From Bacteroidota bacterium (GTDB lineage Bacteria; Bacteroidota; Bacteroidia; Flavobacteriales_D; Crocinitomicaceae): a DNA stretch of 64,000 bases. Below the pieces are notes generated by a model. It had not been told where the DNA came from and made no database searches. It saw only the letters and a list, made by a program, of their open reading frames with translations. Both the position numbers and the translations under genes were made by a program. Where the stretch lies: assembly GCA_024280295.1 (NCBI GenBank), contig JAJRQK010000018.1, positions 1-64,000 of the forward strand, in the 5' to 3' direction. Shown here in pieces: positions 6,642-26,289 of the stretch (positions are counted from its first letter, which is position 1; every line of letters begins with the position of its first letter).

Positions 6642-7817
6642 CTAATATTCGTTAAAGATGCCTTTTTTCGCACTGAAATAGCTTGCAAGACTAAATATTA
6701 CGTATGCTATTAGTAGTGCCATGAAGCTCCAAAGGGAGAGATCTGTATCGATGTATATTCCACCTGAAATAAAGGTATCATCCAAGAAGTACTTTGTAAT
6801 GAAAAATGCTATCGTTCCCATTATTGCTACAACTCCAAAGACTTTAATAAAGTAGATGAAGAACTTACGTATGATTTTATTGGGGTGATAACCAATCCGC
6901 ATAAGTGTTCTTACTTCAATAGCATTTCGAGTCATTAGTAACTGCATGAATTGAATGAGAACTAAGCCAGAGACGAATACTGCTATGATAGAGATACACA
7001 AAACGATAAAGACTAATGTTCCAACAATGCTCTTCAATCTTCCAACAACCACCTGTGCATTTTTTGATTCTAACCCACGATTGTTTAAAAGCTGCTCAAC
7101 TTCTCCAAACTTTCCTTCTTTTCCTTGAATCATGATCTGAGTGATTTTTTGATCAGAACCATCAGAGTATTTTTTATTCCCGTAATCCATGAAACTTTCT
7201 GGAACGAGCATCGCAGAAACTTCATTTGTAAAGCCAACAATTCGACAGTCAACCCATTCTTTATCATCCTCATTAGAAAGTGTGAACTTACATTTTATAC
7301 TCATTACAACATCGTCCGAGATTTGTTTAATGTCATTGGCACTCATAAATGTATTTAGCATCACAACGAAGTCTCGTGGCATAATTAATGGAACGAATTC
7401 GTCACCTTCTTTCCATTCCCAAGATGGGATCTTAACATCAAGAAATTCTGGGTCAACGGTTTGGATGAAGACATCAGAACGAAAACGTGGTACAACTGGA
7501 TCTGCGGTTTCGAATGAGACATTGAAATTATTTGAAATCACTGGTTTGACGTCATCTATAAATGGTTTAGCCTTGATTTTTTCAATTTCTGATTTACTGA
7601 AATCAGTTCGAGCGAGTCCTAATGTGTTTGAGTTCGACACCTTTTTCTGAACAATCACAGTGTTTGGTCCAAGAATTTCGGATCCTTCTCCAAATTGATT
7701 GACTTTGATGAGGTAGTGAATTGAAATAATAAGAAATGCGATTCCTAAAAATGCTCCAATCATGGCGACCACGAGTTGTTTTTTGTCTTGATTTTTGAAG
7801 AGTAATTTGTTCAGCAT
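6642..7817 (-). CDS. ABC transporter permease, FtsX/MacB-like
   Basis: A 391-residue membrane protein with one N-terminal membrane segment (about residues 15-37), a periplasmic domain of about 230 residues, and three membrane segments at the C-terminus (about 265-290, 315-340, 355-380). This is the topology of FtsX/MacB-type permeases, which couple ATP hydrolysis to mechanical work outside the membrane or to lipoprotein or peptide extrusion. The ATPase partner lies 2 bases upstream, so the two form an operon. The substrate is not evident; no outer-membrane or membrane-fusion partner lies nearby. Confidence 0.75.
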   Translation of the reverse strand: MLNKLLFKNQDKKQLVVAMIGAFLGIAFLIISIHYLIKVNQFGEGSEILGPNTVIVQKKVSNSNTLGLARTDFSKSEIEKIKAKPFIDDVKPVISNNFNVSFETADPVVPRFRSDVFIQTVDPEFLDVKIPSWEWKEGDEFVPLIMPRDFVVMLNTFMSANDIKQISDDVVMSIKCKFTLSNEDDKEWVDCRIVGFTNEVSAMLVPESFMDYGNKKYSDGSDQKITQIMIQGKEGKFGEVEQLLNNRGLESKNAQVVVGRLKSIVGTLVFIVLCISIIAVFVSGLVLIQFMQLLMTRNAIEVRTLMRIGYHPNKIIRKFFIYFIKVFGVVAIMGTIAFFITKYFLDDTFISGGIYIDTDLSLWSFMALLIAYVIFSLASYFSAKKGIFNEY

Positions 7818-22523: not shown

Positions 22524-23744
22524 TCACTTAACCACCATTTTATGTTGTATAACGCTATTTGAAGTAGTTAATCGAACATTATAAGCCCCTGGAGTCAAGT
22601 CCAAAGTATTCAAAATTATTTGATCTGCCTTCTGTGTAAATGCAACTTGCATTTCTCTTCCAAATAGATCATGTACAATTATTTGATAATTTAGCGAAAG
22701 ATTACTTGTCTTAATAATTGCATAATCATACGCGGGGTTAGGATAAATAATAAACTCCTCAATGTGATCCATAATAGCGAGACTAGCAGAAGCTTGATCC
22801 ATGCCGAGCATATATTCCCAAACAGGAGCAAAGCGGACACTTCCAAATCCATCAATAGGAGTTTTACTATCCAAAATCATAACACTATGATTTCCTCCTA
22901 ATCCTGTTGTGTCATACTTTATGTAGAGCTGTCGCGTATCATTGTAAGGGGATGTATTAGCATCAACATAGACGCTATCTCCAAAGGTTGCCATTCCTAA
23001 ATTACTCCAAATCTCAAATTGTTCGGGAAAATTAACAACGTCATCATTCGTATTGTTGAAACCATAATAATTAGAATCAGCAACAATATGTGGGGCTGTT
23101 GTCCAACTTGCTCCTGCGTTGAAAAACACACTGTCATCATTCGGTGACGCAAACATTAATACGCGTTTCACTGGTTTGTTGATAGCAATTACTGCAGCAT
23201 GTCCTCCTCCTTGTGAATGACCAGAAATAATTACTTTATCCCATGAAGTTGTAATTCCAGTGAAAAATTGATTCCAGTTTTGACTAGGGTCTGTTCCGCC
23301 TAAATAGATTAAAAGTTTGATTAAACGGTTGTAAGCACTATTAGGAGCGTCAACATTGACTTCAGTGCTATAGTTGATTCCTTCGAGAATTTCTTTTCTG
23401 AAGTTCAAATAACAATTTAGATCAGAACTTCCACCACAAGCCGATTGCGCAGCGGTACCATTTGGGTACTTTAAGACAAGTACATGGAATCCATTGTTTG
23501 CTGCTAGGGCAGGAAAAAGTGTTGTGCTCGAAGGGTTGTCGAATGATCCAACCAAGTGAACTAAGAGCGTGTTTTTAGAAGTGCATGTGGGATTAAAATA
23601 TACAAAGTGACGGTTCAGCTCAAATCCAATTGCTGGATCTGTATCACTTGCCCTAACTTGTTGGACTACTAATGATGCTGGATCACAAAATTGTGCACTC
23701 GAAAATAGTGTGTGAAGCGCAAAGACTAACGGATTTGTATAAGG
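22524..23744 (-). CDS. T9SS-exported alpha/beta hydrolase lacking its start codon
   Basis: An alpha/beta-hydrolase fold protein (nucleophile Ser in VIISGHSQGGGHAAV, LLVHLVGSF near the N-terminus) ending in a type A T9SS sorting domain (FIIYPNPAYDYAIIK ... GAYNVRLTTS ... MVVK). It should be secreted to the cell surface or medium; BPSS1187-type hydrolases look similar. The frame stays open and protein-like up to a TAG at 23745-23747, reading ...VFALHTLFSSAQFCDP, the second half of a signal peptide, but no ATG or GTG is present there. The first usable codon is a TTG at 23555, inside the enzyme fold. The gene is therefore 5' truncated, next to the restriction-modification locus. Confidence 0.75.
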   Translation of the reverse strand, partial: PYTNPLVFALHTLFSSAQFCDPASLVVQQVRASDTDPAIGFELNRHFVYFNPTCTSKNTLLVHLVGSFDNPSSTTLFPALAANNGFHVLVLKYPNGTAAQSACGGSSDLNCYLNFRKEILEGINYSTEVNVDAPNSAYNRLIKLLIYLGGTDPSQNWNQFFTGITTSWDKVIISGHSQGGGHAAVIAINKPVKRVLMFASPNDDSVFFNAGASWTTAPHIVADSNYYGFNNTNDDVVNFPEQFEIWSNLGMATFGDSVYVDANTSPYNDTRQLYIKYDTTGLGGNHSVMILDSKTPIDGFGSVRFAPVWEYMLGMDQASASLAIMDHIEEFIIYPNPAYDYAIIKTSNLSLNYQIIVHDLFGREMQVAFTQKADQIILNTLDLTPGAYNVRLTTSNSVIQHKMVVK

Positions 23745-24001
23745 CTAGTTGCGTTTTTAAAGTTACAATTTTTCAGTTTAACTTTGAGTTTCTTTGTAAG
23801 GAAAAACATTTTTCTTAACCATCTTTAGCAATTAATTTTATACGGTGTTGTGTTTTCGTACTTTTTTTCCGCAAACTTGCTAGCGTTGGCGTTTAAGATA
23901 TTTTATTTTTTAAGCATTGGCTAAAAGCGTAGGCAAAAAATAAATGTGCTTGAACAAGTGTTGGATTTTTAGATTTAGATTTGTAAAAGTCAAATATTGT
24001 T
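23745..24001. other. Non-coding left flank of the restriction-modification locus
   Basis: No credible gene. The stretch is AT-rich and includes one arm (23835-23861) of an imperfect inverted repeat whose partner is at 26096-26121. The promoter of the methyltransferase gene begins at 23980. Confidence 0.5.
23835..23861 (+). repeat. Left arm of imperfect inverted repeat bounding the R-M locus
   Basis: The reverse complement reads GTACGAAAACACAAC followed by an AT-rich tail. The right arm at 26096 reads GTATGAAACACAAC. The cores differ by one base and one gap. The pair may mark the ends of the accessory unit, or it may be coincidence in AT-rich DNA. Confidence 0.35.
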
Positions 24002-24026
24002 GTTAGATTTGCATACTATAATTAGC
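23980..24026 (+). promoter_or_regulatory. Methyltransferase promoter with shared controller element
   Basis: TTTG (23980-23983), 20 bases, TAGATTTG (24004-24011), then CATACTATAATTAGC (24012-24026) over the predicted transcription start. Positions 24002-24026 match 25967-25943 on the other strand at 23 of 25 bases. The second copy is the promoter of the XRE controller gene, which makes this a strong candidate for the controller's binding site (C-box). Confidence 0.7.
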
Positions 24027-24033
24027 GAAAAAA

Positions 24034-24615
24034 ATGAGTGCAGGAAGAACAGTAAATTCTAAAAGTCAAACTTGGGGAACTCCCAAAAAATATGTTGATA
24101 CAGTACGTGATTTTTTTGATGGAACTATTTCGTTAGACCCTTGTTCGAACGAGTATTCAATTGTTAATGCAGAAACAGAATTTTCGTTACCTTCAAAGGA
24201 TGGATTAAAAGAGTCTTGGGATTTTCCGACTATTTACGTAAATCCACCATATGGTTCAGATAGAGAAAGAGGAACAACAATAAAAAATTGGTTGGTAAAA
24301 TGTGCTTTGGCTAAAGAAAACTATAATTCTGAAGTTTTAGCATTAATTCCAATAGCAGCTAATACTAGTCATTGGAAGCAAAGTGTTTTTGGAAAAGCCA
24401 ATGCAGTTTGCTTTTTGTACGATACAAGGCTAAAGTTTTTAGAAAACGGATTGGATGTTGGTAAAGGTGCTCCTATGGCTTGTTCTATGGTGTATTGGGG
24501 AAATAATTATGACAAATTCTATGATGAATTTATAAAATTTGGTGCAGTAGTTGACTTGTCTCATTTACATAATGAAGCAATTGGCAAAGAAAGGTCAATG
24601 CTTAAACTGGGCTAA
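24034..24615 (+). CDS. DNA N6-adenine methyltransferase (phage Dam-type)
   Basis: A 193-residue protein with the order typical of the phage DNA N-6-adenine-methyltransferase family: WGTPKKYVDTVRDFF, LDPCSNEYS (SAM-binding region) and IYVNPPYGSDRERG, the catalytic NPPY motif near residue 72, followed by NWLVKCALA and ALIPIAANTSHW. It should methylate adenine in a specific site. It is convergent with the putative endonuclease, with the last 4 bases of the two genes overlapping, and is controlled by the same promoter element as the controller gene. Together they look like a type II restriction-modification system. Confidence 0.85.
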   Translation: MSAGRTVNSKSQTWGTPKKYVDTVRDFFDGTISLDPCSNEYSIVNAETEFSLPSKDGLKESWDFPTIYVNPPYGSDRERGTTIKNWLVKCALAKENYNSEVLALIPIAANTSHWKQSVFGKANAVCFLYDTRLKFLENGLDVGKGAPMACSMVYWGNNYDKFYDEFIKFGAVVDLSHLHNEAIGKERSMLKLG

Positions 24616-25721
24616 ACTAAAGGCTTTAATCTTACTTTGTTTTTATTATTTTCCACAAAATGCTCAAATTCCATAAAGTTTTGAGTTCCCATTTCAAAGA
24701 GGGCTTTATTGTCAAAATGTTCAATTACAGCATTTACTAATTCTCGAACATTTTCATTAAGTCGATAGTTTGTTTTAGTAATCATTTCTTGGTAGTTATC
24801 TCCAAAATGTATTTCAAAGCCTCTAAATAATTTTACGAGAACTGCATCAGGTACAATTAAATTTAAATCATTACATAATCTAACCATTGACCTACTTTTT
24901 CCCTCCCAATGGGAAGCTTCTCCAATTACTAAAATAGAAATAAAATCATTGTTTTCTGTTTTATCAAACCTACCTAACACTTTTTTTCTGACGTCAAGTG
25001 AAACAAAAGATGCTTGTTTAGCTTTTTCTGGTGTTTGTGGACCTGGAAGAGAATCGTTAACGTGTATTGTTTTTATGTTACTGGCTAATAAGGATTTTAT
25101 CTGAATTACAACACATTTTTTTATTGAGTTATCAATTGTAGATAACTGTTCATTTGGACCTAAAACAAATAAATTATTAGAGATATCGTGACCAATTAAA
25201 ACTTGACTATTTGCTGGACAAGTAAATTCATAAGTTTCTGAATTTACTTCAACTTTATTTACAATTTTTGTAGTTGAAATTCTTATGTTATTATCGTTAC
25301 TAATACCTAGTACGCTAATAGACCATTTAAAATTGGTAGCACTTGGTGAGATTGTAAAAGAATAGCCATTTGTTAAATGAAAATCCTTCTTATTTTCATT
25401 TTTAGCTTTCCAAGTCTTAAAGTTTTGCTTAACTGTTTGCTCAACTCCAACTTTTTTGCACTCTATAATTCCAAATAAGTCGTCTGATTCTTTTGTTGGT
25501 TTCCCATTATCATCAAGATTATAGAATGCAAATTCTACTTTATGTTTAGCTGTGGTTGCACCTTCAACACCATTCTCAATTTCCAAATACTTTGATAGTT
25601 CGGTATCTCTGTAAACCATTGCTAAAGTTACTAATTCGATAGCATCTCCAACTTTTCTACCTATTTGATGTCCTTTTTGACCAAGCCCTTGTGTAAATTT
25701 AAAAACGTCTGATAAATGCAT
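24612..25721 (-). CDS. Putative type II restriction endonuclease
   Basis: A 369-residue protein of no family I can name. It contains one plausible PD-(D/E)xK-type active site: D80/D81 in ESDDLFGIIECKK, six or seven residues before E87-C-K89, with an earlier Glu in VEFAFYN (63). The N-terminus (FKFTQGLGQKGHQIGRKVGDAIEL) is basic and probably contacts DNA. The context is a methyltransferase in convergent orientation and an XRE regulator ending 1 base upstream, which is the usual C-R arrangement of controller-regulated restriction systems. The function is inferred mainly from context. The site recognised is unknown. Confidence 0.6.
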   Translation of the reverse strand: MHLSDVFKFTQGLGQKGHQIGRKVGDAIELVTLAMVYRDTELSKYLEIENGVEGATTAKHKVEFAFYNLDDNGKPTKESDDLFGIIECKKVGVEQTVKQNFKTWKAKNENKKDFHLTNGYSFTISPSATNFKWSISVLGISNDNNIRISTTKIVNKVEVNSETYEFTCPANSQVLIGHDISNNLFVLGPNEQLSTIDNSIKKCVVIQIKSLLASNIKTIHVNDSLPGPQTPEKAKQASFVSLDVRKKVLGRFDKTENNDFISILVIGEASHWEGKSRSMVRLCNDLNLIVPDAVLVKLFRGFEIHFGDNYQEMITKTNYRLNENVRELVNAVIEHFDNKALFEMGTQNFMEFEHFVENNKNKVRLKPLV

Positions 25722-25722
25722 A

Positions 25723-25941
25723 TTAATCCTTCAATATTGTGATTATACTAACTTCAAGTGCATTAGCAATTTTTTTAATATTTAGAAGAGTTATATTTTT
25801 TTCCGCTCTTTCAATCATACCAATATAAGTTCTATGTAAATCCGCTTTATGAGCTAATTCCTCTTGAGAAAGTCCTTTTTTCTTTCGGATTTCACGAACT
25901 CTTTCTCCAAAATTTATAAGTATGTTTTGTTTTGTTTTCAT
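25723..25941 (-). CDS. XRE-type controller protein of the R-M locus
   Basis: A 72-residue protein that is almost entirely one HTH_3 domain (FGERVREIRKKKGLSQEELAHKADLHRTYIGMIERAEKNITLLNIKKIANALEVS). Size and fold match the C proteins of type II restriction systems, which bind short boxes to activate their own and the endonuclease gene late after entry, so that methylation comes first. It ends 1 base before the endonuclease gene. A near-identical 25-base element lies in its own promoter and the methyltransferase promoter, which supports the controller role. Confidence 0.8.
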   Translation of the reverse strand: MKTKQNILINFGERVREIRKKKGLSQEELAHKADLHRTYIGMIERAEKNITLLNIKKIANALEVSIITILKD

Positions 25942-25942
25942 T

Positions 25943-25988
25943 GCTAATTAAAGTATGCAAAGCTAACTTTAGTATTCAGTTAATACAA
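25943..25988 (-). promoter_or_regulatory. Controller-gene promoter with the shared element
   Basis: On the minus strand: TTG (25988-25986), 20 bases, TAGCTTTG (25965-25958), then CATACTTTAATTAGC down to 25943, one base before the ATG. Spacing and sequence mirror the methyltransferase promoter. A further 12-base copy, ACTATAATTAGC, lies at 25992-26003 in plus orientation, upstream of the -33 box. Confidence 0.7.
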
Positions 25989-26289
25989 CAGACTATAATT
26001 AGCATTTAGCATTGAGAGATTTTAGCTCTTTTGGTTTTTAGAGCGTTGAAATTGAGCTTTGGCAAAAACCGAAAGTGCTAAAATATGCGGCTGGTGTATG
26101 AAACACAACGAGAAAATATAGTTCATAGTAAATTATGCTTAAGGTAAAAGTAAGACATCTATTGGACTTATCATTTACATAATTATCCAACTTTTAGCTT
26201 AATTAAAGATGAATAGTATAAACCTAAAAATTAAGGTTCCAACATCTAGTGTGTGAGGATTAATATTAGGGAAGGTTAAGTCCATAGAT
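25989..26289. other. Non-coding right flank of the R-M locus
   Basis: No gene found. It includes the extra ACTATAATTAGC copy (25992-26003), the right arm of the inverted repeat (26096-26121), and a minus-strand ATG at 26124-26126 starting MNYIFSLCFI, which could be the detached 5' end of the truncated hydrolase gene (inference). Confidence 0.4.
26096..26121 (+). repeat. Right arm of imperfect inverted repeat bounding the R-M locus
   Basis: GTATGAAACACAAC followed by an AT-rich tail; inverted relative to 23835-23861. Confidence 0.35.

Follow-up and report, generated by a model that had tools for sequence, protein, structure and literature searches.

Off-target integration of integron gene cassettes is already known; Loot et al. 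are said to have described, in 2024, cassette insertion at G^TT sites by the canonical integron integrase, IntI. An integron integrase counts as canonical through its IntI-specific additional domain, which one review calls necessary for integron recombination (PMC9668308). For an integron-like subgroup, another paper describes this insertion as not fully conserved and yet essential for integron function (PMC8138268). Bacteroidota are listed among the phyla with integrons in two reviews (PMC8618304, PMC9668308) and, thus, integrons in this phylum are not new as such. The window considered here, that is, the whole analyzed stretch of 64,000 nucleotides from contig JAJRQK010000018.1 of a Crocinitomicaceae genome (Bacteroidota bacterium, GCA_024280295.1), contains a predicted type II restriction-modification (R-M) locus lying within the first codons of a gene for an exported hydrolase. 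Very probably, this locus represents a gene cassette of the integron type that was inserted in the hydrolase gene.

The split hydrolase gene

The hydrolase belongs to the BPSS1187 family and has, at its tail, a type A sorting domain of the type IX secretion system (T9SS); its frame occupies the minus strand from 23744 to 22524. Upstream, this frame is open through VFALHTLFSSAQ and PYTNPL back to a TAG at 23747-23745, and its earliest in-frame start is a TTG at 23555, at codon 64, before which there is no ATG, GTG, or TTG. On the other side of the R-M genes and on the same strand, an ATG at 26126 begins MNYIFSLCFI. The start-less frame up to the TAG and the ATG at 26126 had both been given, with correct coordinates, in a preliminary description of this DNA, which also proposed that the two halves form one exported protein and that the R-M locus is an insertion of about 2.4 kb in its first codons, but did not include the attC-like site and the G^TT crossovers described below. 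These proposals are now supported, as the join gives an in-frame signal peptide of homologue-like length, and the inserted segment measures 2,379 bp, follows codon 6, and has a recombination-site anatomy of its own.

In effect, when G^TT cuts remove the 2,379 bp, so that the G at 26109 is followed directly by the TT at 23729, the sequence that is left reads ATGAACTATATTTTCTCG|TTAGTCTTTGCG... and the joined hydrolase reads MNYIFSLVFALHTLFSSAQFCDP..., in frame and open to the end of the gene. Codons 1-6 then occupy 26109..26126 (minus strand), bounded by the ATG at 26126 and by the left crossover, whose G is at 26109. The remainder of the gene (22524..23729, minus strand) starts with TTAGTC at the right crossover and continues to the stop codon; it is the part assigned to the BPSS1187 family and carries the T9SS type A sorting domain. 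The conserved Cys of the joined signal peptide is residue 21, and it is residue 20 or 21 in two homologues (L005 and L009, respectively). At the equivalent point, these homologues have ordinary signal peptides, MSNLLIIIFLALSTTVLSQCDT in L005 and MSNLLTFIALSLSFSMHAQSCDT in L009; among the seven homologues examined, one (L007) has its ATG in a different frame.

Perhaps the 5′ end of the hydrolase gene was instead lost by ordinary decay or misassembly, and the ATG at 26126 is unrelated to it. The draft assembly has 74 contigs, and 1,059 of the 4,968 cut-and-join pairs near both ends leave an open frame, so that restoration of the frame alone is weak evidence. Nevertheless, the joined peptide matches the signal peptides of homologues in both length and character, and the join coincides with the G^TT rule and with complementary arms. 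G^TT is present at both cuts in only 3 of the 4,968 pairs; a single one of these three is in frame, and it is the proposed join, the same that fits the arm complementarity of the attC-like site described below. Such a coincidence makes loss by decay or misassembly the least probable of the explanations considered, and a quite implausible one. That both halves of the hydrolase belong together, and thus that the gene is split, is well supported.

The hydrolase frame is still clean, which argues for a recent split. In its present form, the gene has no usable start or signal peptide and is probably silent. The old hydrolase ATG now opens a 34-amino-acid open reading frame (ORF; 26126-26022, minus strand; MNYIFSLCFIHQPHILALSVFAKAQFQRSKNQKS) that reads into the R-M cassette.

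The probable cassette and its attC-like site

The inserted cassette (23730..26108, 2,379 bp) reads 5′ TTGTGTTTCATAC ... ATCCG 3′ on the minus strand and has a G+C content of 0.308, compared with 0.361 for the window. In the direction of the hydrolase, its last ~125 nt form an imperfect palindrome, ACACAACACCGTATAAAATTAATTGC ... GCAACTAGCCTTATACAAATCCG, that resembles the attC site of integrons. This attC-like site (23725..23853, minus strand) has the R″ arm ACACAAC, which pairs with the GTTGTGT of the opposite end of the cassette, and not with the present neighbor; in a circle, this GTTGTGT would complete R′. When the cassette start, TTGTGTTTCATAC, is placed behind the last G of the cassette, the resulting GTTGTGTTT complements the R″-side AAACACAAC over 9 nt in register, whereas the current right-hand neighbor of the site complements it over 3 nt only. 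In a fixed-register test, complementarity this good was found in 4 of the 2,384 GTT sites of the window, the attC-like site itself included. Both the R and the L stem fold in the circular form; in the integrated form, the R stem is lost and the L stem folds in a 131-nt piece, though not in a longer one. The ends of the cassette thus resemble the two halves of one recombination site, as would result from opening a cassette circle. As in integron cassettes, the segment ends in one attC-like site whose R and L arms can fold, and it has a G^TT crossover at both ends.

The events that would account for this arrangement are as follows. A circle with three R-M genes and one attC-like site, released from an array in this genome or in a donor, would read ATCCG-TTGTGTTTC at its junction. 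An integron-type recombinase would have inserted it at the secondary target CTCG^TTAGTC, after codon 6 of the hydrolase, with G joined to TT on both sides, as with integron cassettes. The insertion would have cut the signal peptide of the exported T9SS hydrolase, with loss of the start.

R-M genes often travel on varied elements, and this segment carries no recombinase gene of its own. Thus, a transposon-like element or a tyrosine-recombinase island might have brought the R-M genes, the attC-like palindrome being incidental. Against this, the ends are mutually complementary in the manner of a single site, and the family to which the site belongs occurs in arrays; an unrelated element is therefore very improbable as the carrier. 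At the ends of the R-M locus, there are no terminal repeats or target duplication that fit a transposon, and no tRNA gene that could have served as a target is present in the window.

The site family was traced in other genomes, beginning with the pattern of the 3′ arm, which matches 8 genomes of the class out of 395 (this one among the 8), compared with 2 of 395 for a reversed control pattern. In six of the seven foreign loci with the pattern, the other arm is visible by eye within 150 bases (L050 does not show it there). An alignment of seven sites, including that of the window, supports the stem: it has 88.3% of its cells paired, versus 80.3% when shuffled and 24-41% when slid; 8 of its 20 pairs changed on both sides, with a covariation score above those of all 500 shuffles, and these values lean towards the seven sites because the stem structure was drawn by eye on the same rows. 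From these sites, a covariance model (R1) was built. In this genome, it finds two sites at E < 1e-4, namely that of the window (E 8e-16, a value obtained with the site among the members of the model) and another at position 44952 of contig C65 (E 2e-5), besides three weaker matches with E values of 0.02-0.5. A sequence search of this genome for further copies of the site returned one only. Among 149 related genomes, 59, this one included, have R1 sites at E <= 1e-4; when only the more complete genomes are counted, the figure is 46 of 116.

The second attC-like site of this genome (C65:44952-45081, plus strand; L069:6953-7082 in the extracted locus) is found directly after a gene for a 157-amino-acid lipoprotein-like protein and before an acetyltransferase-like gene. 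It possibly marks another solitary cassette.

In other genomes, the sites form arrays. Six loci chosen for their many sites (L100, L103, L110, L112, L114, and L126) hold 44 sites at E <= 0.05, all on a single strand within each locus. In 37 of the 38 intervals between sites (567-4,836 bp), the longest ATG-started ORF runs in the direction of the sites, and 35 of 38 intervals end in CGTT, a sequence that the R1 model itself favors. One array, in genome G038, has two adjacent cassettes with an identical 214-amino-acid ORF, as after cassette duplication (L100:9817-11248).

The genes of the window cassette are a controller (C) protein with a helix-turn-helix (25723..25941, minus strand), a predicted type II restriction enzyme-like (R) protein (24612..25721, minus strand; PADLOC REase_II, E 9e-63), and a predicted Dam-type adenine methyltransferase (M; 24034..24615, plus strand). 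Judged from sequence, the adjacent C, R, and M genes correspond to the gene content of a type II R-M system. The R protein has no Pfam, NCBIfam, or PDB match, and no PDB relative of the M protein was found by sequence. Because M lies against R and C, the genes are probably transcribed from promoters of their own. The restriction protein was found in 1 of 395 phylum genomes (this one), in three loci among GTDB contigs, and, with 36% identity, on one plasmid; among 60 genomes, the methyltransferase is present in this one and in one other, at 34%.

Homologous C-R-M modules, with 60-76% identity, are present in three other genomes: that of Flavobacterium humi (L043) and two metagenome-assembled genomes (MAGs), one from Bacteroidales (L041) and one from Bacteroidetes (L042). 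These relatives and the T9SS tail of the hydrolase point to Bacteroidota as the source of the window. The F. humi module is bracketed by two R1 sites (E 1e-6 and 5e-5), which are the only two of that genome at E <= 0.01, and its orientation relative to the sites is opposite to that in the window. Long, similar direct repeats flank this module (L043:4000-4790 and 6680-7400), with an attC-like site in each.

Some observations weigh against insertion of a cassette. No empty site was found in close relatives, for which 34 genomes of the genus were searched; the hydrolase is present in 7 of these, including this one, the other six having 38-60% identity. In five hydrolase loci of 12-14 kb, none of five neighboring window proteins was found, only the hydrolase. 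Furthermore, two of the three homologous modules (L041 and L042) have no site beside them, each of these genomes having one site elsewhere. In addition, when the arms were aligned locally without a fixed register, their match was equalled by 59 of 5,000 random neighbors, which makes this a weak test.

The candidate recombinase and its neighborhood

No protein of this genome, of 60 relatives, or of 16 genomes chosen because they carry sites exceeds the cut-off of TIGR02249, the profile for integron integrases. Matches below the cut-off were obtained in every genome, including 14 controls, and the best of them mostly belong to a family of ~380-amino-acid tyrosine recombinases. The member encoded by this genome (C65:50029-51186) has ~385 amino acids. 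It matches NF040815 ('site-specific tyrosine recombinase/integron integrase') with 228.6 bits, above the cut-off of 220, while the recombinase of G038 falls just below it with 217.6. Its scores for TIGR02249 (193 bits, cut-off 265) and for XerC and XerD (189 for both, cut-offs 335 and 330) are lower than required.

In all 22 proteins of the group, one of them from a Persicobacter plasmid, the box I Arg and the box II His are 88-91 residues apart; IntI1 has 131 residues there, and six shorter proteins of this and other genomes, taken as Xer-type, have 92-96. The IntI4 of the PDB aligns with the G038 recombinase as two blocks, between which IntI4 has 43 extra residues. Since the IntI-specific insertion is lacking, the group falls outside the strict definition of IntI and, hence, of a canonical integron. 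In a tree of 29 proteins, from which the broken gene of G788 was left out, the group and IntI1 are apart from the six Xer-type proteins (support 100/100). The recombinases that head arrays, except that of G830, fall with IntI1 (82/78); the IntI1 branch is very long and its placement unsure.

The surroundings of these enzymes were compared in 28 loci: 12 from genomes picked for their sites, that of this genome, 14 others of the 15 best TIGR02249 matches, and one more. Sequence of 1.4 kb or more downstream of the recombinase is available for 17 loci, and in 11 of them it contains R1 sites at E <= 0.05 (L100, L102, L112, L116, L117, L118, L119, L122, L123, L124, and L130), with all 24 sites on the strand of the recombinase. 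The site in L119 is weak (E 0.013) and two in L123 are modest (E 0.001-0.003). In G802, a shorter recombinase is opposite in strand to nearby sites.

Other features recur near the recombinase. A palindrome like that of an attI site, defined by a score of at least 9 and a GTT within 12 nt, is present behind the recombinase in 9 of the 28 loci, compared with 1.0% of 597 random stretches, and in 7 of 10 loci from the clade of this genome's enzyme, whose own copy scores 7. In this genome, the 204 bp between the recombinase gene and the contig end contain an imperfect palindrome, a GTTAGC after it, and the beginning of an ORF. Divergent to the recombinase is a gene for 124 amino acids (L069:11565-11939, minus strand) without a Pfam or NCBIfam match for this copy. 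Homologues with 37-62% identity are found in L100, L112, L116, L120, L026, and L028, and one with 27% in L117, so that the gene is present in 8 of the 28 loci searched, many of which are too short to show it. The homologue in L100 (3495-3884, minus strand), from this family of 124-129 amino acids, is also divergent to the recombinase. This conserved gene is a candidate partner of the platform.

We infer that the recombinase of contig C65, or a relative, inserted the window cassette, with a folded single strand as its substrate in the manner of IntI. More generally, we cautiously favor the view that many Bacteroidota have a further kind of integron, in which a ~380-amino-acid, insertion-less, integron-like recombinase, often beside the 124-amino-acid gene, would be followed by an attI-like palindrome with GTT and by a co-directional attC array. 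Such platforms would also seed cassettes into ordinary genes, the R-M cassette of the window being one case.

Several points speak for caution. Of the 11 recombinase loci with sites, 10 come from genomes that were picked for sites. Only one of the six unpicked loci with enough sequence has a site (L130), which lowers the probability assigned to this kind of integron; the other five (L127, L128, L129, L131, and L133) lack sites over 2.7-12 kb. Within the 204 bp available behind the recombinase gene of this genome, no site was found, and the only R1 site on C65 lies ~5 kb before that gene, not behind it. A picked locus, L120, also has no site in the 1.6 kb downstream. Four of the site-less loci (L127, L128, L129, and L131) form a separate clade with G830, which has modest sites.

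For the 15 best TIGR02249 matches (L023-L037), the 3′ side of the recombinase is at most 3.3 kb from the contig end in 11 and at most 850 bp in 9. This is as expected where repeat arrays break assemblies; draft genomes may therefore hide cassette arrays.

The absence of a site behind the recombinase of this genome would also suit a different origin, in which a canonical IntI elsewhere, on a visiting plasmid or in an earlier host, moved the cassette and the window represents an ordinary attG insertion. Off-target insertion at G^TT by canonical IntI is reported in PMC12901181, and PMC8618304 names it as a source of clusters of attC sites lacking integrases (CALIN). Nevertheless, no TIGR02249 match exceeds the cut-off in the genomes searched, and the sites are common in these genomes, where they stand behind the other recombinase. 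Consequently, an origin through canonical IntI is considered unlikely.

Comparison with integrons, attG insertions, and Xer systems

Among the best-ranked results of searches in the open-access literature, a scope outside of which preprints and most subscription papers lie, there was no paper on insertion-less integrons in Bacteroidota; the papers compared include PMC9024848, PMC8352920, PMC9668308, PMC8618304, PMC8138268, and PMC12901181. If the proposed platforms work, they may be common in the class and have been overlooked because searches demand the IntI-specific domain. Natural insertion-less enzymes heading attC arrays make the need for this domain directly testable. The window, in turn, offers a clean natural case of a defense cassette landing in, and probably silencing, the gene of an exported enzyme.

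Among known systems, attG (secondary-site) integration and solitary attC cassettes are similar in that the window cassette is single, lies outside any array, and has its G^TT joins within an ordinary gene. A difference is that attG integration has been described for canonical IntI, according to PMC12901181, whereas the window cassette has only a candidate enzyme. With XerC/D and XerA, the recombinase of this genome shares a catalytic core without the insertion. Unlike these, it has ~105 extra N-terminal residues and groups in the tree not with the six Xer-type proteins but with IntI1, whose branch is long.

Integron cassettes and their attC sites share further features with the locus: a presumably mobile segment that ends in one ~130-nt palindromic site, with R and L stems and a G^TT crossover, the restoration of this site in the predicted circle, and arrays whose ORFs run in the same direction as the sites. 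The canonical intI gene is transcribed away from its cassettes. By contrast, the recombinase beside the arrays described here has no IntI insertion and is on the same strand as the sites in each of the 24 cases. Together, recombinase and arrays look like an integron platform, though one outside the usual definition of a canonical integron.

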